Below, piece after piece: positions 1 through 63,508 of a DNA stretch of 64,000 nucleotides (position 1 is the stretch's first letter; each line of letters starts with the position of its first letter). Source of the stretch: Arenicola marina (Eukaryota; Annelida; Polychaeta; Arenicolidae); NCBI GenBank assembly GCA_964019135.1, contig OZ025249.1:33989759-34053758 (forward strand). Reading direction: 5' to 3'. The translations under genes were made by a program, and so were the position numbers. Below the pieces are notes generated by a model, which was given only the letters and a program-made list of their open reading frames with translations, did no database searches and was not told where the DNA came from.

Positions 1-561
1 CGCGTCTTGGTATTGGCTCTCTTCGCGTCCCAGTTCTCCTACTGGATGTTCCTGGTGGTGGCCTGCCACTGGCTGGTGATGTTTGTCTGGATTCTGGCGA
101 AGGACACGCAGTTCTGCCCTACAAAGTGCGAGGAAATCTTGTTTAACGTGATCGTCGCCATTGTCTACGTCTTCTGTTACCTGAACCTGGTGGAGGGCCA
201 CACCCGTCTGCGCTACGTATTCTACTACGTCCTGGTCTACGCCGAGAACGCCGCCCTCATCCTGGTCTGGTACACCGTCATGGCAACCAGCTCGAGCTGG
301 TACGTCACGCCGGCCATGTGCGCCGTGTTGGGCGGATTCTTCATCGGCACCTTCTTCCAGCTGATCTATTACACGACTCTGCACCCCAACAACGCGAAGG
401 ACAACGGTAAGGAGCGCATCCAGTGCTGCGTCCCCTGGGAAGCCCTGCACGTCTGTAAGAACCCGCCTCCCGCGGGGGAGCAGCAGCAAGTTCCTAGGCA
501 ACCGCGTCTGAAGCAGACCAAGACTCTCCCGTCAAGCATCGAGCGACACCAACATGTGTGA
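1..561 (+). CDS. XKR: XK-related protein (XKR4/6/7 group), C-terminal exon, 5' part outside window
   Basis: The reading frame is open from base 1 and stops at 559-561, giving 186 visible residues of a C-terminal exon that starts before the window. Hydrophobic stretches at residues about 5-30, 43-61, 72-95 and 101-120 look like the last membrane segments of an XK-family protein. The blocks FCPTKCEEILFN, VEGHTRLRYVFYYVLVYAEN and YTTLHPN are typical of the XKR4/6/7 branch. A polar tail follows with a basic stretch. In vertebrates XKR4 and XKR8 act in phospholipid scrambling at the plasma membrane and are caspase-activated; the activity of this homologue is not known. Which XKR paralogue it equals cannot be decided from this part. 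The gene points toward TMEM68, which is on the other strand. Confidence 0.9.
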   Translation, partial: RVLVLALFASQFSYWMFLVVACHWLVMFVWILAKDTQFCPTKCEEILFNVIVAIVYVFCYLNLVEGHTRLRYVFYYVLVYAENAALILVWYTVMATSSSWYVTPAMCAVLGGFFIGTFFQLIYYTTLHPNNAKDNGKERIQCCVPWEALHVCKNPPPAGEQQQVPRQPRLKQTKTLPSSIERHQHV

Positions 562-21400: not shown

Positions 21401-24400
21401 TTGTACTTATACTGTACGGTATACGGCATTTGGCAACCAATAGAAATGAGTATACAAAAGAGTATACATTATACATTCTCCATGATGATGTTACATGGTT
21501 GCTTAATGGACGAGGAAGACGTCATAAACCTTAAACCCTTCCAAACTGTCGTTTTGTGGAGACGTAAAATACGCCATCCTTGTGCGTTAGCAAGGAGGAA
21601 TCCAAACATTCCAGTGATTGTCAGAAATAATTCCTTGTTGCGCTGGACGGGGCTTGCAATGGATGGACAACTAGCTAGGAAGCCCAGCTGGATGCGCAAG
21701 GTGTTTTATTGTGTCAGCGGCCGCCTCCTGGGGTGCTCCAAACATACAGGGGGCCGGCGCGATGGCTCAGTGGGTTCGAGCGCTCGCATTGAGTGCTCTG
21801 GTAACCTGAGAGCCTAACGGCACGTGGGTCGGTGGTTCGAGCCCCGCTGTGGCCATGTCTGTGTAGTCGCAGGATAAAGATCCCATGTCTTTCGTCGTAA
21901 AGAGTAAGGGCTTACCCCAGAGGACATGGCTCTACTCTCCCTTCCTTCTCCCATTGACGCGATATGACCAAAAGTGGTTAAAGCATCCTGAATAACCAAC
22001 CAAACATACCGATAACAGGGAGGGTCTTAGTTTCCAGGAGTAACTGATTGCTTTGACCAGAATGGCCTTGAACATCACCGCTCACGAGCTGTTCTAACGG
22101 CAACTAGAAATTGAATGTTTTTATGAAGAAGTAGATGACGATGCTGACGGTAACATTAATTAATGGGGTGGGGCTTAGGGGAACTGGCCATAGAGTGGGA
22201 CTTCCATGGCCGTGAACGGAATGACGTGTGTGTTGGGATTATCGAGCTCTGTATAGTCTCGTCTTTCTGTTTCTACGTAGATGTCATGCCAGGCTTTCTT
22301 GTTATGCCGTGTAGTGTGTCGTCTTCGTTTCAATGTGCGGGTGTTCTCCAAAACATTCGGTCCATGTGCTCATTGTCTATGGTTGTGTCATTCGTTCAGT
22401 ATGATGGTGTCGGGCCATACATTCATACCCTTCACTTTATGGTTGCGTCATTCTTTCAACAAGCGGGTGCCGTGCCATACATTCCTGCTTTTCACTATAT
22501 GGTTGCGTCATTCTTTCAGTATGCGGGTGCCGTACCATACATTCCTGCTTTTCACTATATGGTTGCGTCATTCTTTCAGTTTGCGGGTGCCGTGCCATAC
22601 ATTCCTACCTTTCGCTATATGGTTGCGTCATTCTTTCAGTATGCGGGTGCCGTACCATACATTCCTACCTTTCGCTATATGGTTGCGTCATTCTTTCAGT
22701 ATGCGGGTGCCGGGCCATACATTCCTACCTTTCACTATATGGTTGCGTCATTCTTTCAGTATGCGGGTGCCGTGCCATACATTCCAACCTTTCACTATAT
22801 GATTGCGTTATTCTTTCAGTATGCGGGTGTCGTGCCAGACATTCCTGTTCACCTGGACGCCACCAATCGTACAGACGTCCTGCGGGTGATTGATCGAGGC
22901 AAGGTAAGGAAAACTGCGCCTGTTTTTTCTCGTTATGTTACGTCCAGTAACTGCATGAAAAATGTACGTCTATTTAGTCGCAACTGTTCTTTTGTCCCGT
23001 TAATGTTTGACGCCTGTAAAAGCGTCTTGTCGTGACAACTCGGACGAAATATGTGGAAAATATGTCTGCCGCGTTAGATGATCCAAATGCAATCATGATT
23101 GGTGCTGCCGTTTCTTTTTTTCCTTTTTTTAGGGGGGAATTGGTGGGGGGGCTTCTTTCAATAGCAAATTTATACGAAACAATATACCTGATTTGAGGAG
23201 CTGACACCGTCGAGAACGCAGGAAAAAGCCGTCAATAATGTTTAAACGAAGAATCTTTTATCGTTGCAAGAAACAGTTAACCGTACAAAACCTGACATTT
23301 TGGCGTTTTGGTAGCTGCAGCCTTGAGACAGATGGCAGACCGAATGTGTTGCCTGGCGAGTCCTCCATGAGAACCGGAGGCGAGGCGGAGCCTGTGCTTA
23401 GAGGTGGCCAGTCGGCTACAAAACTAAAGGAGTAACTATGACTGAAAACATTGCTGCAAAGTATCATCAGAATGCCGTACAGCATCTGGTGGATACCCCC
23501 TCCCTCGGCCCCCCCTCCCTCGGCCCCCTCTCCCTCGGCCCCCCTCCCAGGGCCCCCCTTCCTCGGCCCCCCTCCCTCGGCCCCCCTCCCATTTCTTTTC
23601 CTCATTCATTATTGGAATAAGAAGCCTTAGCGTGTGCGTCTTCCTTAATGAGGGTCCTGGGATACGTCATAACCGTGATATATGTACTGGTATAAGAGAA
23701 GCCGACCCCTGATATATAACGCCACCCTCCCCGCCCTGACCCCTCTCACCATGGTGAGCGCGGCATCACTAAACACCATCCAATTATAGGCGGTGTATCG
23801 ATAGCCTTCAGGAGATGGGCAGGCGTGTGTATAGTGTGGGCCTAAGTAGGGGTGGATGGGGGGCGGGGGAGGGGGGGGGGGGGCGAGGGAGGGGGGGGGG
23901 GGCGTCGTCGGTCCTGCAAGTAGCTAGGTTATGCCAGCCTTGTCTGAGTGATCTGTTTATGCTGCAAGTGATGGCGTGGGTGTGGTCTGATTAATCTGCG
24001 TCAGTCGGCACATGTACGTGCTCCTAGCGCCATTGAAAGAAAACCAGGCTGGGGAAAAGGCAAAGTTAAGGGGGTATGGTATAGGGGGGGGGGTAGAGGA
24101 GACGGACGGGGGGGGGGTAGAGGAGGCGGACGGGGGGGTAGAGGAGGCGGACGGAAGGGGGGGGTTTAGAGGAGGTGGAAGGGGGGAGGGGGTTAGAGTA
24201 GGCGGACGGGGGAGGGGTTTTAAGGAGGCGATCGGGGCGGAGGGGGCAAGGGGATGGGGGGACGAGGGTAGGTGGGTATGTCTGTCGAGAATGGGCGCCC
24301 CACCCACGCCCTTGGTATGTGGCGTAGCGTGTTGACCTCCCCAGGGCCTCTGGTCGGTAGAAATGGAGCGAGGGGCGAAACCCGAGCTGCACACCGTGGA

Positions 24401-34700: not shown

Positions 34701-37700
34701 GCTAGCATCAATACACAACCGAAACATACTGAGAAACAAACGGAACGTCAAGCGTAGCTTGAGAAGGGAGACGAAAATCTGGGGATAAGTGCAACTGGAA
34801 TATATATAGCGAGTGAGTGCCGACTATGTACATGCATTACTGACAGAGTATAGGCCGAAATGTCAGCGCGCCGTGAGTCATTTGGCGTATCGAAGCTTTA
34901 TAATGGGATCGGCCATGTTAAAAAATTTGTTTTTTTGCGTGCAAAGCACTCGTCTCATTTGAATGGTATTTGGCACACATGATGTCAGTAATATTGGTAC
35001 CTATTCCACCACATATATGTAATCTACCTGTATTCATGTAGTCAAAGCGATTTTTTTTCATTTTTATTCGGGTCAAATTTAACCATCCAATAGCTCGAAA
35101 ACTATAAATGTGAGGTGAAATCTGAGACCACATTTCTTTTGTGCCTCTCTCAGGAGAATACTTTGAGACAAACCGCGGATCTCTAGAGAATATTAACGGA
35201 GCTACGAAGAAAAACATGAGTCGTGACCTTGATCTTGTTGTGACCTTGACCTTGGATGCGTGACCTCGGGTGAATATAGTCATTCGCGTCCAAATACTAA
35301 TGTCATGTAATACGCAAGGCACCGTTTCTCTGACTATCCCCATCACGGAGAAATGGAGGGGTTTTTTTCCCGCCAAAATTCTCTCATAGGGTGCCATGTT
35401 AAAGTTTGGGAATTTTTTGCACAACAAATATACGGGCGATTTGCTAAAGTTTAAAGACCGTATTCAAGGTACCCTCAGACCCAATACGTAAAATAATCAG
35501 CAGTGCGATTAAATGTAAAAAATGTGAACGCTATGGCTATTTTTTTCGATTTTTGGTCCTGTCTCCCAATGGTTAAGCGAATTTCAATTCGGTTCATATT
35601 TGACCATCGAATAACTCGAAAACTAGTAACGAGAGGTGAAATCTGAGACCACATTCCTTTGCGCTTCACTCTGAAGAATACTCTGAAACAAACCGCGGAT
35701 CTCTAACCCAATATTAACGGAGCTAAAAACATGTTTCGTGACCTTAACATTGTTGTGACCTTGACCTTTGACCTACAAGGCCCATCTTCGAACTTAGCAT
35801 GGCAGTGGGCTGTGGCATTATCTTGTAATTGAAAAAAAAACGGCCCGTAGCGGGAACACGTTTCATCCTACGTCAAATTTGATGCAAGTAACGCGAAAGA
35901 TTTTGAGGAGCTGAGTATTTTGACACTAATTGCGGGTCTGTAATATTTAGAGACGTAGGGCGGAAAATGTGTTTTGGACGTGTGACGTTGACGTTTGAGG
36001 TACGTTTTGCCCATCTACGAACTTGACCTGATGATGGTCTGTGGAGATCGGTATCTTTAGGCATTCGACAGATATGGCGCGACAAGACAAACAGACAGAC
36101 AGACAAACAGACTCACAGACAAACCGAACACACCGACATAAGACGAAAATCTACGATTTTTGTCTTAATAACAGCTATATTTTTTTTTACAAGCCTCGAA
36201 TATATTCCAATGCACCACATGGCAAGCTGGTTCTATGTATTTCAATAGGCTCCCACAGGAACGGTGCCATGACTCTCGCTATGTATATCGTCTAAAATAT
36301 GTTAAAATACATTAATTAATTTATACCATAATATATTAGACCAACTCTCGATATCAAACGTAAGTATCGCCAAAAAAGACGTCCAGATAGCAATGGATTC
36401 TGTGCAAAGAAATCAGCGTTCCGGCAGCAAGCTCCGTGACAGCCATGGGGCTCCGTGACAGCCATGGAGCGTCGTGACAGCCAGAGAACTGACAGTCATG
36501 GGGCTCCGTGACAGCAAGCGAACTGACAGCCATGGGGCTCCGTGACAGCCAACGAACTGACAGCCATGGGGCTCCGTGACAGCCAGCGAAATTACAGCCA
36601 TGGGGCTCCGTGACAGCAAGAGAACTGACAGCCATGGGGCTCCGTGACAGCCGGCGAACTGACAGCCGTGTGGCTCCGTGACCGCAAGCAAACTGGCAAC
36701 CATGGGATGCCGTGACAGCCAATGAACTGACAGCCATGGGGCTCCGTGACAGCCAGCGATCTGACAGCCATGGGGCTCCGTGACAGCAAGCGAACTGACA
36801 GCCATTGGGCTCCATGACAGTAAGCGAAGTGACAGTCATGGGGCTCCGTGACAGCCATGGGGCTCCGTGACAGCCATGGGGCTCCGTGACAGCAAGCGGA
36901 CTGACAGCAAGCGGACTGACAGCCATGGGGCTCCGTGACAGCCAGCGAACTGACAGCCATCGGGCTCCGTGACCGCAAGTGAACTGGCAACCATGGGACT
37001 CCGTGACAGCCAATGAACTGACAGCCATGGGGCTCCGTGACAGCCAGCGATCTGACAGCCATGGGGCTCCGTGACAGCAAGCGAACTGACAGCCATGGGG
37101 CTCCGTGACAGCCAACGAACTGACAGCCATGGAGCTCCGTGACAGCCAGCGAACTGGCAGCCTTGGGAGTTCGTGACGGCCAGCGAACTGACAGCCATGG
37201 GGCTCCGTGACAGCCAGCGAACTGACAGCCATGGGGCTCCGTGACAGCCAACGAACTGACAGCCATGGGGCTCCGTGACAGCAAGCGAACTGGCAACCAT
37301 GGGACTCTGTGACAGCCAGCGAACTGACAGCCCTGGGGCTCCGTGGCAGCAAGAACTGACAGCCATGGGGCTCCGTGACAGCAAGCGAACTGGCAACCAT
37401 GGAACTCCTTGACAGCAAGCGAACTGACAGCCATGGGGCTTCATGACAGCAAGCGAACTGACAGCCGTGGGGATTCGTGACAGCAAACGAACTGACAGCC
37501 ATGGGGCTCCATGGCAGCAAGCGAACTGACAGCCATAAGTCTCCGTGACAGCCAGCGAACTCCTTGACAACCATGGAGCTTGTTGACAGCCATGAAGCTT
37601 GTTGGCAGCCAAGAAGCGTCGTTACAGTTATGGAGCGTCGTGGAGCGTCGTGACAGCCGTGGGGCTCCGTAATAGCCAGCGAACTCCTTGGCAGCCATGG

Positions 37701-40700
37701 GGCTTCTTGACAGCCATGGAGCTCCTTGGCAGCCATGGGGCTTCTTGACAGCCATGGAGCTTCGGTGTTGTTGTCTGTGTTGTTGCAGGAGTTGCTGTTT
37801 GTCCTGTTGCCATTGCTCACTCGGTGTTGTTGCAGGAGTTGCTGCTGCGCCTGCCGGTTCACGAGGTGGCGGCCATCTGCTACATCAGGGATGACGACCA
37901 GCACATCCTCGGCATCAAGTCAGGTCAGCTCCGGCTTTACCATTGTCCCATTATTACCATCACATGTCCCTACTAATGGGCATCCGTCACATTGATCTGG
38001 GGAGCTCCCCTAGTTTAACCGGTAAATAGGCTGAACTACGTACAGATCAACAGGTCGTGGGTTCGAACCCTGGTACCTTCATCTGTAGCAAGTTTCCTCC
38101 AACCTCATTTCATTGTCCCTGGAGGATTCTTGATCCAGTTTAACCTTCAGATGGGGACCAATATTTCTTGTCATATTGATGTCAGTTATCATGGCAAGGC
38201 TCGTATGTATGAGTATGCATAACACATCGTCATGCCAAATGTCAGTCCTGCTGCAAAAATATTTGGCGAAGCGTTTCATCATTGCACCTCCACTGAGATT
38301 ATCTAGTCACTTCTATTAACTGTTAATTATTTAGTTACCACATTTGTTGATTATGGTTTGATGACATTCCCTGTGTATTACACAGGTAACCTGAGGATCA
38401 GCCGCGGTCTGGACGAGGCACAGGACACCTGCCAGCTTGTCGTCATGTACTGTGATAGCCGAGTACGTCCATTCCTACTCCGCACTACAATCTATAATAA
38501 CACTCGACCATGTTTCAGTTTGGGTTCTTACGCATTACTTTACAAATTAAGGTGATTTTTTCCATTTATATTTTATAACAAAATTAATGATCGGCGATAT
38601 TTTCCATTTATATTTCATTAAAAATGTTATGAAAGTATCGCCTCAAAATTTAAATTTATGCGTAACAACCAAAAAAGAACTTGCCGACACTGGTTTTAAT
38701 CCGAAAATAACCATGTTTTTGTGTGATCTGTCGTATATAAATCTCGTGGCCTATATTGCTCTTAGAGAAAAAGGTTTACAAATGACAAAATACAATTGAA
38801 TACAAATATTGTTTTAAAAAGATACTGTTAAAGACAACTGTAAAAAATATTTCAAAAATATAATGATGACGCATTTCAGGGATCGGCGGAGGAGCTCTGC
38901 TCCCTGATTGGTCAATGCTTCCAGTTGGTTTACACGGAAGCGACGATGCATTTCTTGGACATGAGAGTGGACGAAGCAGCGGCGGGCCTGTCTATTGGCA
39001 ACACAACACTCCGCAGCGGTAAGGCTGAGCTCATAGAGATAGGGAGTGTCTTACCTTCTTAGGTTCGAATCCGGGGCATGTTTCATCCTTGCATTCGTCG
39101 TCGTCCCTGGAGGTTCATTGGCACAGTCTACCCCTTGTGTGCACCAAAGCGGCCTACAACACTTAACATTTCACATTTCCTATGTAATGAAAACTGACAT
39201 GGAATGTGTCACATCGTATATAGAGGTGCGTCGTGAGCTTTGAATATGTTGTATTGTTGCATAACCAATATCCTGATACCCCGTGTTATCTTACGTTACT
39301 CTTACGAGAAATTGATTTGTTGATGTTTGTATAGAACGGTGGATTTGCGGTTTACCGTTACGGCTAATGACAGAATATGCCATCGGTAACATCTGCGCCT
39401 TCTATATGGAGTGGTAGGTCCGGATTGGTCCCGTTACGAGACAGTTGTCTCCAAGTGTAGGGGGTGTATCTATAGTGATGTCATGTTGTAATGGTTATGT
39501 TGGTATTGTGACGGCAGATCGGTCCGATACCTCCACACCGAAACGGGAGCGTGGCGAACGCAGCAACCTCGGCTTGTAAGTGTCCTACTTTCCTCACGTT
39601 TTTTTAACGATATATTTTATCATATATAAATGTGTCAATATGTTTATTATTCACATCAATTCTTTCGGCCGTCTCTTTTAAGGGGAATAAGCCTTAACTT
39701 TCCTATTATGACTTAAGATATATGATATTTACATTATATTTCATCTGTATACTGTGGTTTTTTTTTCACTTTTCATTCCCGCATACACTTAATGCATCTA
39801 TGATTGACTGTTCAACCTCGGCCCCGCAGCTTATCGTACTCAAGCCTTGACCTTGAGCATTCCAATGGCGGCACGACGTCATCTTCCGGTACCTCAAGGT
39901 CGTTGCCACGGACGGCGGCGCGACGCAGCAGCATGGCACGTAGTGAGGACGAACTCAGCCCGGCCGCCACCGATATGATACAGGACTACATGAAGAAGGT
40001 CTGTGCTTGAAGCCATCGCACTTGCGTCCCCTTTGATGTACCTACATAGTGCATTTAATCTTTTGAGGCGTATGCCAATGAAGTGTCGAGCCTATTGAGG
40101 TCAGAAATGTTGAAGCAGATGTTAAAGCAGAAATTCGTTCATGTGTGAAATGCTACCTATCATCTGTTGCATTAATATAAAGGTAACGATCCTCAAGGTC
40201 TCACTCACAAATTTGTTTTGTTTCAACTTTGTGTAATATATTACAGTGGAAAGTAATTTACAGGCAACAAGTACTTATTGCACTTGAACCTTCTTACGCA
40301 GGTCGCGTTTTCGTTCGATTAACACGTATCCGAGTATGATAAGCCCCTATACAATTACTAATACCTGCTGATTAAGGTGTCACTTTGATCAAATTTGTGT
40401 TATTTCTAATGAACGGCATTGAGTTGTCTCATAGGAGATGACGTCATTCAGTCATGGTGAAGAGTCTCACAGTCTTGGTGCGTCTTGCAGTTGTACAAGA
40501 AGCTCAACACGGATGAGCTGCGGCGGTTTGCGATGTTGGTGCGAGCCTGGCACTCAACCATGTCCATCACCGACTTCTGTGAGAACGTCATGGACCTCTA
40601 CGGGCCGGAGAGGAAGCACCTACTACTGGGTAAGGTCTGCGGGTGTAGAGCGCCTTCTACTGGGTAAGGTCTGCGGGTGTAGAGCACCTTCTACTGGGTA

Positions 40701-43700
40701 AGGTCTGCGGGTGTAGAGCGCCTTCTACTGGGTAAGGTCTGCGGGTGTAGAGCGCCTTCTACTGGGTAAGGTCTGCGGGTGTAGCGCACCGCCTACTGGG
40801 TAAGGTCTGCGGATGTAGAGCGCCTTCTACTGGGTAAAGTCTGCGGGTGTAGAGCGCCTTCTACTGGGTAAGGTCTGCGGGTGTAGAGCACCTTCTACTG
40901 GGTAAGGTCTGCGGGTGTAGCGCACCGCCTATTGGGTAAGGTCTGCGGGTGTAGCGCACCGCCTACTGGGTAAGGTCTGCGGGTGTAGAGCACCTTCTAC
41001 TGGGTAAGGTCTGCGGGTGTAGAGCGCCTTCTACTGGGTAAGGTCTGCGGGTGTAGAGCACCTTCTACTGGGTAAGGTCTGCGGGTGTAGAGCGCCTTCT
41101 ACTGGGTAAGGTCTGCGGGTGTAGAGCGCCTTCTACTGGATAAGGTCTGCGGGTGTAGAGCACCTTCTACTGGGTAAGGTCTGCGGGTGTAGAGCGCCTT
41201 CTACTGGGTAAGGTCTGCGGGTGTAGAGCACCTTCTACTGGGTAAGGTCTGCGGGTGTAGAGCGCCTTCTACTGGGTAAGGTCTGCGGGTGTAGAGCACC
41301 TTCTACTGGGTAAGGTCTGCGGGTGTAGAGCACCTTCTACTGGGTAAGGTCTGCGGGTGTAGAGCACCTTCTACTGGGTAAGGTCTGTGGGTGTAACGCA
41401 CCTTCTACTGGGTAAGGTCTGCGGGTGTAGAGCACCTTCTACTGGGTAAGGTCTGCGGATGTAGAGCGCCTTCTACTGGGTAAGGTCTGCGGGTGTAGAG
41501 CACCTTCTACTGGGTAAGGTCTGCGGGTGTAGCGCACCTTCTACTGGGTAAAGTCTGCGGGTGTAGAGCACCTTCTACTGGATAAGGTCTGCGGGTGTAG
41601 AGCGCCTTCTACTGGGTAAGGTCTGCGGATGTAAAGCGCCTTCTACTGGGTAAAGTCTGCGGGTGTAGAGCACCTTCTACTGGGTAAGGTCTGCGGGTGT
41701 AGCGCGCCTTCTACTGGGTAAGGTCTGCGGGTGTAGAGCACCTTCTACTGGGTAAGGTCTGCGGGTGTAGAGCACCTTCTACTGGGTAAGGTCTGCGGGT
41801 GTAGAGCACTTTCTACTGGGTAAGGTCTGCGGGTGTAGAGCACCTTCTACTGGGTAAGGTCTGCGGGTGTAAAGCACCGCCTACTGGGTAAGGTCTGCGG
41901 GTGTAACGCACCTTCTACTGGGTAAGGTCTGCGGGTGTAGAGCACCTTCTACTGGGTAAGGTCTGCGGGTGTAGAGCACCTTCTACTGGGTAAGGTCTGC
42001 GGGTGTAGCGCACCTTCTACTGGGTAAGGTCTGCGGGTGTAGCGCACCTTCTACTGGGTAAGGTCTGCGGGTGTAGAGCGCCTTCTACTGGGCAAGGTCT
42101 GCGGGTGTAGAGCACCTTCTACTGGGTAAAGTCTGCGGGTGTAGAGCACCTTCTACTGGGTAAGGTCTTCGGGTGTAGAGCGCCTTCTACTGGGTAAGGT
42201 CTGCGGTTGTAGAGCACCTTCTACTGGGTAAAGTCTGCGAGTGTAGAGCACCTTCTACTTGGTAAGGTCTGCGGGTGTAGAGCGCCTTCTACTGGGTAAG
42301 GTCTGCGGGTGTAGAGCACCTTTCTACTGGGTAAAGTCTGCGGGTGTAGAGCACCTTCTACTGGGTAAGGTCTGCGGGTGTAGAACACCTTCTACTGGGT
42401 AAGGTCTGCGGGTGTAGAGCACCGCCTACTGGGTAAGGTCTGCGGGTGTAGAGCGCCTTCTACTGGGTAAGGTCTGCGGGTGTAGATTACCTTCTACTGG
42501 GTAAGGTCTGCGGGTGTAGAGCGCCTTCTACTGGGTAAGGTCTGCGGGTGTAGAGCACCTTCTACTGGGTAAGGTCTGCGGGTGTAGAGCACCTTCTACT
42601 GGGTAAGGTCTGCGGGTGTAGAGCACCTTCTACTGGGTAAGGTCTGCGGGTGTAGCGCACCTTCTACTGGGTAAGGTCTGCGGCTGTAGAGCGCCTTCTA
42701 CTGGGTATGGTCTGCGGGTGTAGCGCACTTTCTACCGGGTAAGGTCTGCGGGTGTAGAGCACCTTCTACTGGGTAAAGTCTGCGGGTGTAGAGCACCTTC
42801 TACTGGGTAAGGTCTGCGGGTGTAGAGCACCTTCTACTGGGTAAGGTCTGCGGGTGTAGAGCACCTTCTACTGGGTAAGGTCTGCGGGTGTAGAGCGCCT
42901 TCTACTGGGTAAGGTCTGCGGGTGTAGAGCGCCTTCTACTGGGTAAGGTCTGCGGGTGTAGCGCACCTTCTACTGGGTAAGGTCTGCGGGTGTAGAGCAC
43001 CTTCTACTGGGTAAGGTCTTCGGGTGTAGAGCGCCTTCTACTGGGTAAGGTCTGCGGGAGTAGAGCACCTTCTACTGGGTAAGGTCTGCGGGTGTAGCGC
43101 ACCTTCTACTGGGTAAGGTCTGCGGGTGTAGCGCACCTTCTACTGGGTATGGTCTGCGAGTGTAGAGCGCCTTCTACTGGGTAAGGTCTGCGGATGTAGA
43201 GCACCTTCTACTGGGTAAGGTCTGCGGGTGTAGAGCGCCTTCTACTGGGTAAGGTCTGCGGGTGTAGAGCACCTTCTACTGGGTAAGGTCTGCGGGTGTA
43301 GAGCACCTTCTACTGGGTAGGGTCTACGGGTGTAAAGCGCCTTCTACTGGGTAAGGTCTGCGGGTGTAGCGCACCTTCTACTGGGTAAGGTCTGCGGGTG
43401 TAGAGCGCCTGCTACTGGGTAAGGTCTGCGGGTGTAGAGCACCTTCTACTTGGTAAGGTCTGCGGGTGTAGAGCGCCTTCTACTGGGTAAGGTCTGCGGG
43501 TGTAGAGCACCTTTCTACTGGGTAAAGTCTGCGGGTGTAGAGCACCTTCTACTGGGTAAGGTCTGCGGGTGTAGAGCACCTTCTACTGGGTAGGGTCTGC
43601 GGGTGTAAAGCACCTTCTACTGGGTAAGGTCTGCGGGTGTAGAGCGCCTTCTACTGGGTAAGGTCTGCGGGTGTAGATTACCTTCTACTGGGTAAGGTCT

Positions 43701-46700
43701 GCGGGTGTAGAGCGCCTTCTACTGGGTAAGGTCTGCGGGTGTAGAGCACCTTCTACTGGGTAAGGTCTGCGGGTGTAGAGCACCTTCTACTGGGTAAGGT
43801 CTGCGGGTGTAGAGCACCTTCTACTGGGTAAGGTCTGCGGGTGTAGCGCACTTTCTACTGGGTAAGGTCTGCGGGTGTAGAGCACCTTCTACTGGGTAAA
43901 GTCTGCGGGTGTAGAGCACCGCCTACTGGGTAAGGTCTGCGGGTGTAGAGCGCCTTCTACTGGGTAAGGTCTGCGGGTGTAGATTACCTTCTACTGGGTA
44001 AGGTCTGCGGGTGTAGAGCGCCTTCTACTGGGTAAGGTCTGCGGGTGTAGAGCACCTTCTACTGGGTAAGGTCTTCGGGTGTAGAGCACCTTCTACTGGG
44101 TAAGGTCTGCGGGTGTAGGGCACTTTCTACTGGGTAAGGTCTGCGGGTGTAGAGCACCTTCTACTGGGTAAGGTCTGCGGGTGTAGAGCACCTTCTACTG
44201 GGTAAGGTCTGCGGGTGCAGAGCACCTTCTACTGGGTAAGGTCTGCAGGTGTAGAGCACCTTCTACTGGGTAAGGTCTGCGGGTGTAGAGCGCCTTCTAC
44301 TGGGTAAGGTCTGCGGGTGTAGAGCGCCTTCTACTGGGTAAGGTCTGCGGGTGTAGCGCACCTTCTACTGGGTAAGGTCTGCGGGTGTAGAGCACCTTCT
44401 ACTGGGTAAGGTCTGCGGGTGTAGAGCGCCTTCTACTGGGTAAGGTCTGCGGGTGTAGAGCGCCTTCTACTGGGTAAGGTCTGCGGGTGTAGCGCACCTT
44501 CTACTGGGTAAGGTCTGCGGGTGTAGAGCACCTTCTACTAGGTAAGGTCTGCGGGTGTAGAGCGCCTTCTACTGGGTAAGGTCTGCGTGTGTAGAGCACC
44601 TTCTACTGGGTAAGGTCTGCGGGTGTAGCGCACCTTCTACTGGGTAAGGTCTGCGGGTGTAGAGCACCTTCTACTGGGTAAGGTCTGCGGGTGTAGCGCA
44701 CCTTCTACTGGGTAAGGTCTGCGGGTGTAGAGCACCTTCTACTGGGTAAGGTCTGCGGGTGTAGAGCACCTTCTACTGGGTAGGGTCTACGGGTGTAAAG
44801 CGCCTTCTACTGGGTGAGGTCTGCGGGTGTAGCGCACCTTCTACTGGGTAAGGTCTGCGGGTGTAGAGCGCCTTCTACTGGGTAAGGTCTGCGGGTGTAG
44901 AGCGCCTTCTACTGGGTAAAGTCTGCGGGTGTAGAGCGCCTTCTACTGGGTAAGGTCTGCGGGTGTAGCGCACCGCCTACTGGGTAAGGTCTGCGGGTGT
45001 AGCGCACCGCCTACTGGGTAAGGTCTGCGGGTGTAGAGCGCCTTCTACTGGGTAAGGTCTGCGGGTGTAGAGCACCTTCTACTGGGTAAGTTCTGCGGGT
45101 GTAGAGCACCTTCTACTGGGTAAGGTCTGCGGGTGTAGCGCACCGCCTACTGGGTAAGGTCTGCGGGTGTAGCGCACCGCCTACTGGGTAAGGTCTGCGG
45201 GTGTAGAGCGCCTTCTACTGGGTAAGGTCTGCGGGTGTAGAGCACCTTCTACTGGGTAAGTTCTGCGGGTGTAGAGCGCCTTCCACTGGGTAAGGTCTGC
45301 GGGTGTAGCGCACCGCCTACTGGGTAAGGTCTGCGGGTGTAGAGCGCCTTCTACTGGGTAAGGTCTGCGGGTGTAGAGCACCTTCTACTGGGTAAGGTCT
45401 GCGGGTGTAGAGCGCCTTCTACTGGGTAAGGTCTCCGGGTGTAGAGCACCTTCTACTGGGTAACGTCTGCGGGTGAAGCGCACTTTCTACTGGGTAGGGT
45501 CTACGGGTGTAGCGCACCTTCTACTGGGTAAGGTCTGCGGGTGTAGAGCGCCTTCTACTAGGTAAGGTATGCGGGTGAAGAGCGCCTTCTACTGGGTGAT
45601 GTCTGCCTCCTATGTACAGCGTCATGGCTAAACTACGTGGCATCTCTTTGTGAACATGTTTGCCGCTTTGTTGCTGTTCTGTCGGTTCTTATTTTGCAAT
45701 AGATTATAGTGATGGCGTTCTTTCTTCAGGTATGCGTCCTTTCATCCCTGATAAGGACATAGTGAAATTTGAAACATTCCTCGAAAAAATCGGTCTGAAC
45801 AGCACCTCGATCTGGAGCGACAGTATGTCCAGTGGGATGAAGCAGGTGTACAGGTAACTGGGTGTCGGGGAACATTAACTGGTGCCTCATGTGCCAAGTA
45901 ACAATTGTCTAATGAGAGGCGATAGCTACATTTCTGAGGGAATGAGACATCAAAATGTCTGAATTTCTGATAAGCTACGAATCTGGCAATTTAACTGTAA
46001 TCTATACTGTGCCTCGATAAGGGCTGGGCAAGCCTTTTAAAACCCGGATTATACTTTTGGGACTGGATAATGTTTGATATTTAGAAGTATAGCATGAAGA
46101 TCTAAGCCAGTGTAAAGTTCCCAATACAAATCATATTGAGGTCGTTTTCGCATAAAGACAATTATATAATATACAAAAGCTAAAAAGACGTTCAAATACA
46201 TTTTCTGTCAAACTGGGGGCTGTATTGCGTTATTGTCTTTTTCGTCATCAAACTGTGGAGATTTTGACGCTCTTTGCCACTTTAATTCAAACTATAGGCA
46301 TTAGACTATAGGCATTTCTAACGAAAAATTATCAAACAATGCGTCCAGTTCATTTGAAAGAAATATTCTGAGATTCATTCTTCAGAAAAAAAAATGTTGT
46401 GCGGGCAGCTTTAATGTGATGAATCTTGGTTTCCGTGCAGTGAAGCAATGTTCAGTGTCGTTTCTTCCCAGACGTACGTACAGCGGCACGGGGACGTTTA
46501 ATGGCGGAGCCAGCACGGGCGATGAGTACGACGTGATGCTGAACGAGATCTCGCACGACATCGAGAACCTAGGCACCAGCGTGGAGCTGGGCGGCGGCGC
46601 CACGGGTGGAGTGGGCATCGGCGGCGGGGCAGGGGCAGGGGCGGGGGCAGGGGCCGGGGGCGGGATAGACGACGACGGTCTGGGGGGGCCCAACACGTGA
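12482..46700 (+). CDS. CCM2: CCM2 (malcavernin) scaffold protein, 12 coding exons
   Basis: Coding exons: 12482-12508, 20581-20733, 22820-22903, 33441-33539, 37836-37923, 38386-38462, 38880-39018, 39518-39575, 39830-39998, 40491-40629, 45730-45853, 46472-46700. They sum to 1386 nt (461 aa), near human CCM2 (444 aa), and every phase joins. Exons 2-7 encode the PTB domain (about residues 45-222): ERRPLKTVSL, YLEKEV, EHDAIFCLNAQNVK, LPVHEVAAICYIRDD, CQLVVMYCDSR, AEELCSLIGQCFQLVYTEAT. Exons 9-11 encode the harmonin-homology domain: IQDYMKKLYKKL, DFCENVMDLYGPERK, MRPFIPDKDIVKFETFLEKI. Exon 12 has the conserved tail helix DEYDVMLNEISHDIENLG, followed by an unusual Gly/Ala-rich run. CCM2 binds KRIT1 through its PTB domain and MEKK3 through the harmonin-homology domain. 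Exon 1 (MEEAIRKSK then GTGAGC) is tentative: its length, phase and MEE start resemble the tiny human exon 1. The exon 9 donor (GTCTGT) is weak. Confidence 0.93.
12509..14815. other. CCM2 intron 1, AT-rich left part
   Basis: Single-copy-looking AT-rich DNA with no exon, RNA gene or defined element that I can support. Confidence 0.4.
14820..16600. repeat. GC-rich minisatellite, 30-31-bp unit, in CCM2 intron 1
   Basis: Roughly 55-60 degenerate tandem units of GGGCGGGCGGCCCTACAGGG plus TGCTGTGCTGA are present, with frequent substitutions (TGGACTGA, AGGAAGGGC, GATACGGGC). The last 350 bp switch to a variant with GTGCTGGCGGCCCCACAGGG. Open frames through it on both strands are repeat artefacts. 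Confidence 0.92.
16600..20580. other. CCM2 intron 1, GC-rich right part
   Basis: The stretch has long homopolymer G and C runs (for example 16757-16785, 17940-17957), a GCT triplet run near 18352, and ATC/CAC runs near 18470-18690. Open frames here are proline, histidine or glycine rich and shadow the low-complexity runs. No gene is called. Confidence 0.4.
20734..22320. other. CCM2 intron 2 (before the splice-site array)
   Basis: Holds a G-rich run (21067-21092) and a SINE at 21748-22005. Otherwise nothing was recognised. Confidence 0.4.
21748..22005 (+). mobile_element. tRNA-derived SINE in CCM2 intron 2
   Basis: The head GGCGCGATGGCTCAGTGGGT resembles a pol III A box, and GTGGTTCGAGCCCC about 75 bases later resembles a B box. 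A non-tRNA body follows, ending near CCAAAAGTGGTTAAA. The stems do not close into a proper tRNA cloverleaf, so this is a retroposon head rather than a tRNA gene. It lies in the same orientation as CCM2. Confidence 0.65.
22321..22860 (+). repeat. 60-bp array repeating the 3' splice site and start of CCM2 exon 3
   Basis: Eight 60-bp units (22381, 22441, 22501, 22561, 22621, 22681, 22741, 22801) follow GGTTGCGTCATTCTTTCAGT plus ATGCGGGTGCCG and CCATACATTCC. A degenerate ninth unit starts near 22321. The last unit contains the real acceptor (TTCTTTCAG at 22811-22819) and the first codons of exon 3 (YAGVVPDIP). Most upstream units keep the same polypyrimidine-AG and a diverged version of those codons (YAGAVPYIP). 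The unit is 20 codons long and the frame stays open from 22163 to the exon. Confidence 0.95.
24080..24240. repeat. G-rich minisatellite in CCM2 intron 3
   Basis: Irregular tandem units of GGGGGGTAGAGGAGGCGGAC, with variants, make a strongly strand-asymmetric G-rich tract with many runs of four or more G. Such DNA can in principle fold as G-quadruplexes. Confidence 0.75.
25713..25768. repeat. (GA)n microsatellite
   Basis: A nearly pure AG dinucleotide run with a GGGG interruption near 25742. A shorter AGAGAG tract lies at 24635-24657. Confidence 0.9.
28805..29170. repeat. G-rich minisatellite, GGGGTGGGGCGTA type, in CCM2 intron 3
   Basis: Irregular units combine GGGGTGGGG, GCGTACAGGGGTCGGG and CGTATA over about 365 bp. 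The + strand is extremely G-rich. The long open frames on both strands here (for example minus-strand PTPVRPTHP repeats) are low-complexity artefacts. Confidence 0.85.
30110..30487. repeat. 36-bp minisatellite in CCM2 intron 3
   Basis: About ten near-identical units of ACGAACTTTTGTTATTATAC plus AGATGTTAGTGATCAT are present. Variants include GTTAGTTATCAT and ACAAACTTTT. The 12-codon length keeps several frames open on both strands, but the encoded repeats resemble no protein. Confidence 0.95.
30728..30915 (+). mobile_element. tRNA-derived SINE, copy 1 of three in CCM2 introns
   Basis: The tRNA-like head has TGGTGTAGTGGTTAGCGCAC (A box region) and GGGTTCGAATCC (B box). The body runs through GGGGCATGTTTCATTC, GGAGGATCCTTGGCC and GTGGCCTAAAACACC. 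The head looks most like a tRNA-Glu/Ala type. The acceptor stem does not pair cleanly, so I call a SINE and not a tRNA gene. Related copies are at 38005-38165 and 39058-39175. Confidence 0.75.
31526..32070 (+). mobile_element. Possible Helitron-like fragment
   Basis: The left end TCTATACTAATAAAATTAAA, followed shortly by GAAGCTGTCTGTC, resembles 5' ends I know from animal Helitrons. The right end could be CGGGGCGGCTAA followed by T, a CTRR-type end. The base left of the element is T rather than the expected A, and a clear terminal hairpin is not seen. No Rep/helicase coding sequence is present. Weak call. Confidence 0.3.
33540..36410. other. CCM2 intron 4, left part
   Basis: Contains three related dispersed repeat segments (35080-36115) and otherwise AT-rich DNA without a recognisable gene. 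Confidence 0.4.
35080..36115. repeat. Dispersed repeat copies with GTGACCTTGACCTTTGACCT motif
   Basis: Two clear copies (about 35080-35290 and 35600-35790) share AGGTGAAATCTGAGACCACA, ACAAACCGCGGATCTCTA, AATATTAACGGAGCTA and GTTGTGACCTTGACCT in order. A third, more diverged piece (35870-36115) ends in a CAGACAGACAGACAAACAGA tail. This looks like a nested or tandem insertion of one non-coding repeat family. It lies within CCM2 intron 4. Confidence 0.7.
36420..37765. repeat. 34-bp minisatellite ending just upstream of CCM2 exon 5
   Basis: About 39 tandem units of GACAGCCATGGGGCTCCGTG plus ACAGCCAGCGAACT are present, with many substitutions and some length changes. The array stops about 70 bp before the exon 5 acceptor. 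The 516-codon open frame on the minus strand (36354-37904) and its shorter parallel frames are created by the array and crossed by the real CCM2 exon on the other strand, so they are not genes. Confidence 0.93.
38005..38165 (+). mobile_element. tRNA-derived SINE, copy 2 (CCM2 intron 5)
   Basis: Same family as 30728-30915: CAGATCAACAGGTCGTGGGT, then GGTTCGAACCC (B box), CAAGTTTCCTCCAACCTCAT and CCTGGAGGATTCTTGATCCA. The A-box side is more decayed. It lies between exon 5 and exon 6. Confidence 0.65.
39058..39175 (+). mobile_element. tRNA-derived SINE, copy 3, 5'-truncated (CCM2 intron 7)
   Basis: Begins at TTAGGTTCGAATCC (B box) and runs GGGGCATGTTTCATCC, CCCTGGAGGTTCATTGGCAC, GCACCAAAGCGGCCTACAAC. 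The A-box half is absent. Confidence 0.65.
40620..45605 (+). repeat. 34-bp array, about 145 units, repeating the CCM2 exon 10 5' splice site
   Basis: The unit GTAAGGTCTGCGGGTGTAGA plus GCGCCTTCTACTGG repeats from the exon 10 donor to 45605, nearly filling intron 10 (40630-45729). The real junction is CTACTGG followed by GTAAGG at 40623-40635. Each unit reproduces those last seven exon bases and the donor, then about 20 intron bases. Unit variants (GAGCGCC, GAGCACC, GCGCACC; GCCTACTGG; GTAAAG) alternate in blocks such as the pair around 42240-42480 and 43440-43690, suggesting unequal exchange or amplification of multi-unit blocks. Use of a downstream copy would add 34 bases per unit and meet the TAG in GTGTAGAG. 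Confidence 0.97.
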
Positions 46701-53796: not shown

Positions 53797-56281
53797 GGTA
53801 CGTCTAATTACCGAAGGGGGCTGGACGGGGCCGAAAACACTGGAGGGGGCTGGAGGGGGCCGGGATTTACCGAAGGGGGCTCGATATGGAGGGGGTTGAT
53901 GCTTAAATGAAAGGGGCTTGTGGGCATATTGGATTAAAAATAAACGGCAAATCATTCATTTATTTATTCCTTCAATTTACCGAAGGGGCTGGAGGGGGCC
54001 GGTATTTACCGACGGGGGCTCGATGGAGGGGGTTGATGATTAAATGAAAGGGGCTTGCGGGCATCTTGTGTTATTAGGGGACATCAAACAACCCTCAGAT
54101 CTGTGTTATTAGAGGACATCAAACAACCGTCAGACTTCGCCGACCAACTTCAGCAGGTGACAAACATGGTGCAGACAAGCCCATTTGTCCAAAGCGTCGT
54201 TCACCAGAAGGACAAGGTGTCATCCATCATTGTGTCTACACAAAAGACAGTGGAAGCAGCGAAGCAGATGTGTTGCACATCGGACAGTCCATCAGTTCTG
54301 GGAATCGACAGAACATTCAACCTGGGGAAGGTTTTTGTGACTGTTACGTCATACAAGCACAAAGGTCTGTTACGCAAAGACAGCAGCCAAAACCCCATAA
54401 TGTTCGGACCCTGGCTTCTTCACGGCACGTCTACGTTTGAGGTTTATGCCGCCTTCCTCGATCACATAGCGACTGCTTTCGGATCAAACAAGCAGCCGAA
54501 GTTGGTCATCGGTTCGGACGAGGAGGCTGCCCTTCGGCGAGCCATTCGGGAGAAATTCCCCAACTCTGACAACATCTTGTGCACGAGACATCTCAGGAAC
54601 AACGCCGACGACTATTTAAAAAACAAAGTGGGACTTAAGCGCTCAGACCGACAGGACACTGATCACTGAAGCAGTATTCGGAGAAAGCGGAGCTTTAGGC
54701 GCAGATGACAGTATTGTTTTCGATCAACGACTGAAAGACGTGAAGGACTTAGTGGCGGACAAGACGACGACTACCTGCTTTCAAAACCACATGGACAAGA
54801 GACTGACTACACTCCTGAAAGATGGAGTGTTTAATCCTTCACGAAGACACAACATTGCACACACAAAGTTACCGATTGATGTAAAGACGATAGTATGCAA
54901 ATGAAAAGCATGTGATCATTGAATGCATTGAATAAATAAATAAATGAATGATTTGCCAATTACCATTTTCGTTTTTGTTTTATTTTAATCCAAGATGCCC
55001 GTAAGCCACTTCCATTTAATCATCAACCCCCTCCATCGAGCCCCCTTCGGTAAATCCCGGCCCCCTCCAGCCCCCTTCGGTAAATCCCGGCCCCCTCCAG
55101 CCCCCTCCGGTAAATTGAAGGAATAACTAAATGAATGATTTGCCATTAATTTTTAATCCAAGATGCCCGTAAGCCACTTCCATTTAATCATCAACCCCCT
55201 CCATCAAGCCCCCTTCGGTAAATCCCGGCCCCCTCCAGCCCCCTTCGGTAAATCCCGGCCCCCTCTAGCCCCCTTCGGTAAATTGAAGGAATAACTAAAT
55301 GAATGATTTGCCATTAATTTTTAATCCAAGATGCCCGTAAGCCACTTCCATTTAATCATCAACCCCCTCCATCGAGCCTCCTTCGGTAAATCCCTGCCCC
55401 CTCCAGGCCCCTTCGGTAAATCCCTGCCCCCTCCAGGCCCCTTCGGTAAATCCCGGCCCCCTCTAGCCCCCTTTGGTAAATTGAAGGAATAACTAAATGA
55501 ATGATTTGCCATTAATTTTTAATCCAAGATGCCCGTAAGCCACTTCCATTTAATCATCAACCCCCTCCATCGAGCCCCCTTCGGTAAATCCCGGCCCCCT
55601 CCAGCCCCCTTCGGTAAATTGAAGGAATAACTAAATGAATGATTTGCCATTAATTTTTAATCCAAGATGCCCGTAAGCCACTTCCATTTAATCATCAACC
55701 CCCTCCATCGAGCCTCCTTCGGTAAATCCCTGCCCCCTCCAGGCCCCTTCGGTAAATCCCTGCCCCCTCCAGGCCCCTTCGGTAAATCCCGGCCCCCTCT
55801 AGCCCCCTTTGGTAAATTGAAGGAATAACTAAATGAATGATTTGCCATTAATTTTTAATCCAAGATGCCCGTAAGCCACTTCCATTTAATCATCAACCCC
55901 CTCCATCGAGCCCCCTTCGGTAAATCCCGGCCCCCTCCAGCCCCCTTCGGTAAATTGAAGGAATAACTAAATGAATGATCTGCCATTAATTTTTAATCCA
56001 AGATGCCCGTAAGCCACTTCCATTTAGTCATCAACCCCCTCCATCGAGCCCCCTTCGGTAAATCCCGGCCCCCTCCAGCCCCCTTCGGTAAATCCCGGCC
56101 CCCTCCAGGACCCTTCGGTAAATTGAAGGAATAACTAAATGAATGATCTGCCATTAATTTTTAATCCAAGATGCCCGTAAGCCACTTCCATTTAGTCATC
56201 AACCCCCTCCATCGAGCCCCCTTCGGTAAATCCCGGCCCCCTCCAGCCCCCTCCAGCCCACTTCGGTAATTAGACGCACCG
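53797..56281. mobile_element. MULE-type DNA transposon, about 2.5 kb, with internal repeat arrays
   Basis: CACACTTGG flanks both ends (53788-53796 and 56282-56290), a 9-bp direct repeat typical of Mutator-like insertions. Inside, both ends begin TCTAATTACCGAAG in inverted orientation after GGTACG (left) or GGTGCG (right). Both arms are built from GGGGGCTGGAGGGGGCCGGG plus ATTTACCGAA motifs. The left arm has about 1.5 copies of a longer unit; the right arm (55000-56270) has seven or eight. Two right-arm blocks starting at 55321 and 55657 look identical, giving a 336-bp higher-order period. A transposase fragment lies between the arms. Confidence 0.85.
54055..54903 (+). pseudogene. MULE-like transposase fragment, frameshifted
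   Basis: The first part (to about 54635) reads VLGIDRTFNLGKVFVTVTSY, then PKLVIGSDEEAALRRAI and ILCTRHLRNN. This gives two acidic catalytic-type residues (in GIDRTF and GSDEE) and a C-x2-H motif after the second, as in Mutator-like transposases. A single-base shift near 54633-54640 moves the frame. The continuation (ITEAVFGESGALG, DQRLKDVKDLVADKTTTTCF) runs to a stop near 54903. There is no clear start and the N-terminal DNA-binding part is missing. A 36-bp direct duplication lies at its left edge. It cannot encode a full enzyme as it stands. Confidence 0.75.
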
Positions 56282-62300: not shown

Positions 62301-63508
62301 CCCGAGGGATGCGCTGAACCAGAAGACATGGCGGCGGAAATAGAAGACAATATCCTTCTCTGACCTCTCCCGGTTCACCCTGCCTGACGTGGACAGTGTT
62401 TGGGGTCGAATATAGTAATCGCTCGGTTAATTTATGAATGATTAAATGAATCACTATTCAAGCTCAGGTTTGTTCTAATGATCGTTCTAAATGCATAATT
62501 CTAAGTTAATACTTTATGGCTTACTTTTGCCCGTTGGAAGTAACTTAAAGTTTACATTTACGCTGACGGCAACTTTGCCACTGGTACCCGGGACACGGCT
62601 CGTGGTGGATTGGTTCACAATGAGGTATGGTCCAACATGGCCTCTTTCTTCATTATCCAGCTGCGTAGACATTGAACCTGGGTCACGCCAGACCGTTAAG
62701 AAGGTAGGGGTTGCGGCCAGCATTGCCACTGGTGTTACCTTAACACGCCAGACCGTTAAGAAGGTAGGGGTTGCGGCCAGCATTGCCACTGGTGTTACCT
62801 TAACACGCCAGACCGTTAAGAAGGTAGGGGTTGCGGCCAGCATTGCCACTGGTGTTACCTTAACACGCCAGACCGTTAAGAAGGTAGGGGTTGCGGCCAG
62901 CATTGCCACTGGTGTTACCTTAACACGCCAGACCGTTAAGAAGGTGGGGGTTGCGGCTAGCATTGCCACTGGTGTTACCTTAACACGCCAGACCGTTAAG
63001 AAGGTAGGGGTTGCGGCCAGCATTGCCACTGGTGTTACCGTAACACGCCAGACCGTTAAGAAGGTAGGGGTTGCGGCCAGCATTGCCACTGGTGTTACCT
63101 TAACACGCCAGACCGTTAAGAAGGTAGGGGTTGCGGCCAGCATTGCCACTGGTGTTACCTTAACACGCCAGACCGTTAAGAAGGTAGGGGTTGCGGCCAG
63201 CATTGCCACTGGTGTTACCTTAAAACGCCAGCCCGTTAAAAAGGTAGGAGTTGCGGCCAGCATTGCCACTGGTGTTACCTTAACACGCCAGACCGTTAAG
63301 AAGGTGGGGGTTGCGGCCAGCATTGCCACTGGAGTTACCTTAACCTTTGATAAGTATCTTCGATGAATTCAAGAACACTGAGGTGAAGTACAAGAACCGC
63401 GTGCGGAGTCGGATGGCCAACCTGAAGGATACCAAGAACCCCAAGCTGCGAGAAGGCGTCCTGCTGGGCCTCATCCCGCCCGACCGCATAGCTAAAATGA
63501 ATGCCGAG
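56392..63508 (+). CDS. TCEA1: Transcription elongation factor TFIIS (TCEA), six 5' exons; C-terminus beyond window
   Basis: Exons: 56392-56460, 60880-60948, 61148-61259, 61563-61850, 62296-62349 and 63354-63508. Exons 1-3 encode the N-terminal LW domain ([63 protein letters not shown]). Exon 4 is a Ser/Gly-rich linker and then [18 protein letters not shown], the start of the central domain. Exons 5-6 continue it ([39 protein letters not shown]). The zinc-ribbon exon(s) that carry the catalytic DE pair lie past 64000. TFIIS binds stalled RNA polymerase II and stimulates cleavage of backtracked RNA. Phases join at all GT-AG introns. The exon 5/6 intron begins ATATCCTT and appears U12-type; the frame needs exon 6 to start at 63354, giving an AT-AA intron. 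The paralogue number (TCEA1, 2 or 3) is not resolvable, as the gene probably predates that split. Confidence 0.93.
56461..60879. other. TCEA intron 1 (4.4 kb)
   Basis: AT-rich DNA with scattered short open frames and no recognisable coding, RNA or repeat feature. Confidence 0.45.
62350..62362 (+). other. U12-type 5' splice site in TCEA
   Basis: ATATCCTTCT directly follows exon 5 (...GAAGACA). It matches the U12 consensus ATATCCTT at all eight positions. No GT donor is available nearby, and the frame would otherwise stop at TGA a few codons later. Confidence 0.75.
62685..63345 (+). repeat. 60-bp array (11 units) carrying a U12 branch-point-like motif, TCEA intron 5
   Basis: Eleven nearly identical 60-bp units follow CGCCAGACCGTTAAGAAGGT plus AGGGGTTGCGGCCAGCATTG and CCACTGGTGTTACCTTAACA. 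Every unit ends in TTACCTTAAC, close to the U12 branch-site consensus TTCCTTAAC. The last unit's motif (63337-63346) lies about ten bases from the exon 6 start. Because the unit is 20 codons, frames on both strands stay open ([20 protein letters not shown] repeats); these are not proteins. Confidence 0.93.

Follow-up and report, generated by a model that had tools for sequence, protein, structure and literature searches.

The CCM2 locus and its donor-spanning minisatellite

The window, by which is meant the whole stretch of 64,000 bases that was analysed, contains an annelid CCM2 gene in which a splice donor is followed by well over a hundred tandem copies of itself. Eleven coding exons of this gene can be identified between about 20638 and 46700, and the array-bearing exon is the ninth of them. 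The features around this exon, all of them on the plus strand, are the following (a slash marks the exon/intron boundary).

40491 to 40629, plus strand: CCM2 coding exon of 139 nt, phase 0 to phase 1 (PF16545, 4fqn, boundary sequence)
40615 to 45606, plus strand: 34-bp donor-spanning minisatellite of 146 whole units and one partial unit (Tandem Repeats Finder, segmentation, 15-mer count)
40615 to 40648, plus strand: unit 1 of the array, with 15 nt from the exon end followed by 19 nt from the intron start (genuine donor TGG/GTAAGG)
40630 to 45729, plus strand: intron of 5100 bp, 4977 bp of which are array (acceptor TTCTTTCTTCAG ending at 45729)
45730 to 45853, plus strand: next CCM2 coding exon, reading MRPFIPDKD... 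(PF16545, 4fqn, translations)

Once joined, exons 40491-40629 and 45730-45853 match the CCM2_C family of Pfam (PF16545, E 1.2e-31) as well as the solved structure of malcavernin in the PDB (4fqn, E 5.5e-25), and they form the CCM2 harmonin-homology domain. The join at 40629/45730 reads L-L-L-G-M-R-P-F, its counterpart in 4fqn being L-L-L-G-L-R-P-F. Among 14 protein matches, the closest is that of the annelid Paralvinella palmiformis (58% identity), and the further named ones belong to the nemertean Lineus (51%), the annelid Capitella (49%), the nemertean Tubulanus (47%) and two gastropods (37-38%). In this search, which scored only the 7996 candidates with the most words in common, no lancelet appears among the six named matches (14 in all) and no match exceeds 58% identity. 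In a tree of 16 rows, the sequence from the window joins Paralvinella (97/93) and then Capitella (89/84). On the basis of this search and tree, amphioxus was rejected as the source of the sequence. Some exons of the gene model were located by tblastn with a human CCM2 query, and the remaining ones, among them those of the C-terminal half, were read from translations and by eye against the Paralvinella protein. The model is without at least one 5' exon, so that the number given to exon 40491-40629 in the sequence-only reading, exon 10, is plausible but unproven.

Tandem Repeats Finder delimits the array at 40615-45606, with a period of 34, 146.8 copies, 93% matches and 0% indels, and the tandem donor array that the sequence-only reading had described after this exon is therefore real and correctly located. 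Segmentation resolves it into 146 whole units, 144 of 34 bp and two of 35 bp, plus a partial one of 26 bp, and 51 distinct sequences are represented among the whole units. The boundary-spanning 15-mer CTACTGGGTAAGGTC has 145 matches with at most one mismatch, all on the plus strand and extending from 40623 to 45535, as opposed to none in 100 dinucleotide shuffles of the window. The array begins inside the coding exon, and each unit combines 15 nt of exon with 19 nt of intron. Unit 1 is the genuine boundary, with the exon ending at 40629 and the donor at 40630, which bears out the proposal that the boundary itself has been amplified; 145 whole units and the partial one come after it. Unit 1 is identical to the array consensus at 33 of 34 positions, the exception being exon position -8, where it has A instead of T in the third place of a leucine codon, and no other of the 144 units of 34 bp has an A at this position (the eighth of the unit). 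At its far end, the array stops 123 bp before the next exon, which leaves the acceptor outside it. Regarding the donors, the claim that every unit keeps one of consensus quality comes close to the truth: out of 147 donor positions, 118 are exact copies of TGGGTAAGG, 125 retain GTAAG and 144 retain GT.

A coding array was considered and rejected, as the unit length of 34 bp is not divisible by 3. Of the stop-to-stop frames with 40 aa or more, those lying wholly within the array reach no more than 51 aa on the plus strand and 67 aa on the minus strand. Rfam, searched at gathering scores over the whole window, gave no match.

Besides CCM2, the window holds part of an XK-related protein gene (1-558, plus strand; PF09815, E 2.1e-39) and an open reading frame at 54040-54666 with a MULE transposase domain (PF10551, E 2.1e-08), which has 30 protein matches, the best of them by E-value being 77% identical over 62%. 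Thirteen listed tandem-repeat stretches account for 13177 of the 64000 bases, a heavy load for a stretch with several genes.

Variation and growth of the array

Substitutions are unevenly distributed along the unit. Computed over the 144 units of 34 bp, the share of substituted cells is 2.2% in the donor, 1.6% in the other intronic positions, 7.1% in the first 12 exon-derived positions and 4.2% in all non-donor positions together. The difference between the donor and the non-donor total is due to the variable exon-derived part, and since the donor is quieter than the unit average but not than its intronic neighbours, there is no clear sign of selection: the copied donors show no conservation beyond that of the adjoining intronic part of the unit. 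When the 34 circular 9-mer windows are ordered from least to most variable, that of the donor comes 16th, and the share of possible substitution types that occur is similar inside the donor (11 of 27) and elsewhere (31 of 75). Purifying selection on the donor copies thus finds no support either by position or in sliding 9-mer windows; this is not a disproof, and concerted evolution makes a comparison of this type less powerful.

A structural mark on the true donor, in the form of a stem ACCTT/AAGGT weakened by the A of unit 1, was also rejected, given that the predicted accessibility of the RNA gives unit 1 no advantage: with three sizes of folding window, the first donor takes rank 100, 67 and 117 among 118. 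Concerning the pairing with U1, 118 of the 147 donors are identical in the pairing region and hence share the duplex energy of the true donor, -9.7 kcal/mol, with one variant copy reaching -10.3. Five other CCM2 donors have values from -6.5 to -10.0, an interval that includes the value of the true donor.

The order of variant units may hold traces of how the array has grown, as in the following blocks.

42281 to 43851, plus strand: two array blocks related by a shift of 1191 bp, that is, 35 units and 1 bp (shared variants, exact repeat)

This shift links the two 35-bp units (42281 and 43472), two of the three ATTACC units (42486 and 43677) and both copies of the longest exact repeat in the array, of 235 bp, which starts at 42426 and again at 43617. 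In 60 shuffles of the unit order, the longest repeat has a mean of 162 and a maximum of 230. Identical whole units follow one another in runs of up to 6 in the array and of up to 7 in shuffles. As the repeat barely exceeds the shuffles and the run lies within them, a block duplication inside the array is suggested, not proven. The units at the edges escape homogenisation, as seen in the private A of unit 1 and in the last six whole units, which are the most diverged (mean of 2.17 differences, compared with 0.8-1.7 in the preceding blocks of ten). The divergence of these last units and the block signal fit ordinary minisatellite turnover, the molecular route being presumptive. Hairpin-driven instability was rejected, since four 136-nt stretches folded as DNA, covering two places in the array on both strands, show nothing unusual (z of +1.09, -0.56, +0.87 and -0.64).

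Duplication of a splice boundary is not restricted to this exon, as two acceptors of the same gene are also found in repeats.

22378 to 22846, plus strand: second boundary-spanning array, 60 bp x 7.8, with the acceptor ATTCTTTCAG/TATGCGGG (Tandem Repeats Finder, 24-mer copies)
22820 to 22903, plus strand: CCM2 exon YAGVVPDIPVHLDATNRTDVLRVIDRGK (tblastn, translations)
37777 to 37923, plus strand: two-copy acceptor duplication with a 47-bp shift, GTGTTGTTGCAG/GAGTTGCTG, before the CCM2 exon ELLLRLPVHEVAAICYIRDD (22/24 matches)

The last unit of the 60-bp array holds the real acceptor of the exon that starts at 22820, and the boundaries of the two-copy duplication lie after 37788 and after 37835. 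When 19 CCM2 boundaries were compared as 24-mers with the surrounding 6 kb, a set that did not include the acceptor of the first identified exon or that of the short one ending near 39575, and in which the donor at 39576 was one base out of register, 3 of the 19 had near copies at the level of at least 19 matches: donor 40629 (146 copies), acceptor 22820 (7) and acceptor 37836 (1). Random positions reach this level in 25.7% of cases, because arrays cover much of the window; outside arrays, the proportion is 3.85%. In terms of placement, two of nine arrays in the gene contain a boundary, where random placement predicts 0.33 (P = 0.043), the nine being hand-picked arrays of a single gene from which shorter repeats were left out. 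The excess of boundary-spanning arrays over random placement, in one gene only, is suggestive but not strong.

Other arrays of 34-bp type (TGACAGCCATGGGGCTCCG...) occupy 36456-37764 and stop a short way upstream of the duplicated acceptor that precedes the exon at 37836; as judged by eye, their unit is without this boundary. A further repeat lies in an intron of another gene of the window, a TFIIS-like one (TFIIS_M, PF07500, E 6e-26 for the joined exons). The intron in question, 62350-63353 with ends inferred by hand, begins with ATATCCTTCT, which resembles a U12-type donor, and about two thirds of it consist of an array of 11 units of 60 bp (62684-63344). The motif TTACC[T/G]TAAC, similar to a U12 branch point, occurs 10 times in this array, against 0.35 expected from shuffles, the last time about 9 nt short of the inferred 3' end of the intron. 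From these sequence features, the intron may be of the AT-AA type removed by the minor spliceosome, with branch sites that have been amplified.

Consequences of donor choice and possible readings of the array

For each of the 119 GGGTAAGG sites, the extended exon was joined to the downstream exons; the exon start and the last-exon joins used were a few bases off, which kept the frame and the stops and altered one residue. In these computed joins, the first donor alone (1/119) gives an open, in-frame passage through the conserved domain, and all 118 downstream sites tested are non-productive, as the sequence-only reading had anticipated. The join from the second donor shifts the frame and meets a stop within the next exon. 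From the third donor onward, translation reaches a stop at 40665-40667, overlapping the donor of the second unit; this first in-frame stop had been given as TAG and is actually TAA. Donors 2 to about 5 would still yield exons of ordinary size.

The array is probably a neutral minisatellite, with passive donor copies and splicing that still takes place at the first donor. A segment of 34 bp straddling the end of the CCM2 exon and the start of its intron would have been tandemly duplicated, thus originating the founding repeat, and this would have grown inside the intron through replication slippage, unequal exchange or gene conversion, carrying along donor copies that are presumably neutral. 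Exon definition and the competition between donors are classic subjects of splicing research. Under exon definition, the first donor would be chosen because it is attached to a real exon, with an upstream acceptor and an exon body, and any other choice leads to a frameshift or a premature stop; RNAs spliced at downstream donors would presumably be removed by nonsense-mediated decay. We infer use of the first donor from protein conservation alone. The classic in vitro rules, according to which the intron-proximal one of several identical donors is favoured, would instead predict mis-splicing and run against this reading.

In an alternative reading, the array is leaky and mildly harmful, a sizeable share of CCM2 transcripts using downstream donors and being lost to nonsense-mediated decay, which would be tolerated as long as enough correct mRNA is left. 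The equal U1 duplex energy of 118 of the 147 donor copies, together with the fact that the first of the 119 GGGTAAGG sites is the only productive one, would be in line with it, and the copied splice signals of comparable arrays in amphioxus globin genes are allowed as cryptic sites in their description (PMC3087553). However, the amphioxus arrays are reported as correctly spliced in the available text of both accounts (PMC3087553, PMC3902484), and we regard extensive leakage as unlikely.

Somewhat less likely still is a function of the array as a U1 decoy platform, on which bound U1 would hinder pairing at the real donor and cause detention of the intron, the length of the array setting the dose of CCM2. 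The retention of GT at 144 of 147 donor positions, the non-productive outcome of 118/118 downstream GGGTAAGG donors and the lower variation of donor positions with respect to all non-donor ones (2.2% vs 4.2%) may be read in its favour, and there are precedents in human genes: decoy exons with weak splice sites lead to intron detention in OGT (PMC12017769), and intron retention results from a newly arisen cryptic donor in exon 44 of VWF (PMC8706089). Nevertheless, cryptic donors elsewhere in the VWF exon did not promote retention (PMC8706089), from which it follows that decoy action depends on context, and the amphioxus arrays are reported without disturbance of splicing in the portions available (PMC3087553, PMC3902484). 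In the CCM2 array, the donor varies no less than the other intronic positions (2.2% vs 1.6%), and minisatellite turnover accounts for the array without function. The suggestion of a U1 sink or donor selector is not supported by the comparison with the intronic neighbours, by the rank of the donor 9-mer (16/34) or by the predicted accessibility, which does not favour the first donor. The boldest version of the idea, which we hold to be very improbable, would have the 147 donors act as a length-dependent U1 decoy that slows intron removal, so that CCM2 dose would be set by a fast-changing minisatellite, and would make boundary duplications on donor and acceptor sides, of which there are three in the gene, a recurrent and fast mutational class outside chordates. 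On this view, boundary duplications would naturally test how the spliceosome picks among many identical sites.

Long tandem arrays are prone to misassembly, but it is extremely unlikely that the array, or most of its length, arose in this way, since 51 distinct sequences among 146 units, the lack of any exact repeat above 235 bp and the two length variants are unlike repeated pasting. Misassembly had been named beforehand as a possible refutation, and these data make it less likely while leaving the exact copy number unconfirmed; one amphioxus array was apparently assembled aberrantly in a draft (PMC3087553).

Regardless of function, the locus offers a natural test of donor choice, consisting of one real donor followed by 118 GGGTAAGG sites, nearly all at 34-nt steps, in a conserved gene. 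It has a built-in read-out, because the position of each junction identifies the donor used. To our knowledge, the choice of the spliceosome among identical donors has mostly been studied with few, artificially duplicated sites.

Comparison with known systems

The closest parallel is found in amphioxus, where minisatellite-like tandem duplications of exon/intron boundaries, on either the donor or the acceptor side, were described as mirages in Adh3 and globin genes (PMC3087553), with PGBD5 and troponin C (TnC) as further cases (PMC3902484). According to the first of these accounts, as far as available, mirages are unstable in length and are considered compatible with normal splicing, even if their copies could serve as cryptic sites (PMC3087553). 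As in Adh3, BflGb6/BflGb9, troponin C and PGBD5, the tandem units of CCM2 span the boundary and many of them carry the splice signal, and the edges of the cluster escape homogenisation (PMC3087553, PMC3902484). The dimensions are different: the BflGb6 mirage is described with 6 and 3 units of 150-160 bp in two haplotypes, Adh3 units with 10-72 bp and the PGBD5 mirage with 3 x 108 bp, whereas CCM2 has 146.8 copies of a 34-bp unit over 5 kb. The host also differs, being amphioxus for the described mirages and an annelid for the CCM2 array, whose gene groups with those of Paralvinella and Capitella.

Other systems share single traits with the array. Internal tandem repeats of human segmental duplications have units of about 30 bp, lie in some cases at exon-intron boundaries and are expanding; they have a mean of 4 units and are described as altering the coding sequence or as creating new introns by way of cryptic sites (PMC2812944), unlike the CCM2 array, which has 146 units and does not affect the coding sequence of the normal join. 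Large minisatellite clusters are also present in an annelid intron, the first one of earthworm metallothionein genes, in whose available description no copying of splice boundaries is mentioned (PMC12783039). The human OGT decoy exons are likewise intronic splice sites, which in OGT are recognised but rarely used; they include sites of both types with a demonstrated effect (PMC12017769), while the CCM2 array contains only donors and is known from its sequence alone. The unit of the CCM2 array further contains the heptamer GGTCTGC (40634-40640 and later units), which is also present in the intronic minisatellite CeRep25B of C. elegans, described as enriched near multiple alternative splicing decisions (PMC4039745); this may be a coincidence.

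In a literature search with most subscription journals outside its scope, no work was found on minisatellite donors with intron retention or on duplicated or competing donors, and no title among the matches listed concerns boundary-spanning minisatellites in annelids. With the CCM2 locus, these minisatellites, described in lancelets and human genes, are also found in an annelid, in a copy number well above those given in the accounts cited. The CCM2 array is an unusually large case of the known mirage kind, which differs from the published ones in its scale, in its host and in the company of further boundary duplications within the same gene.
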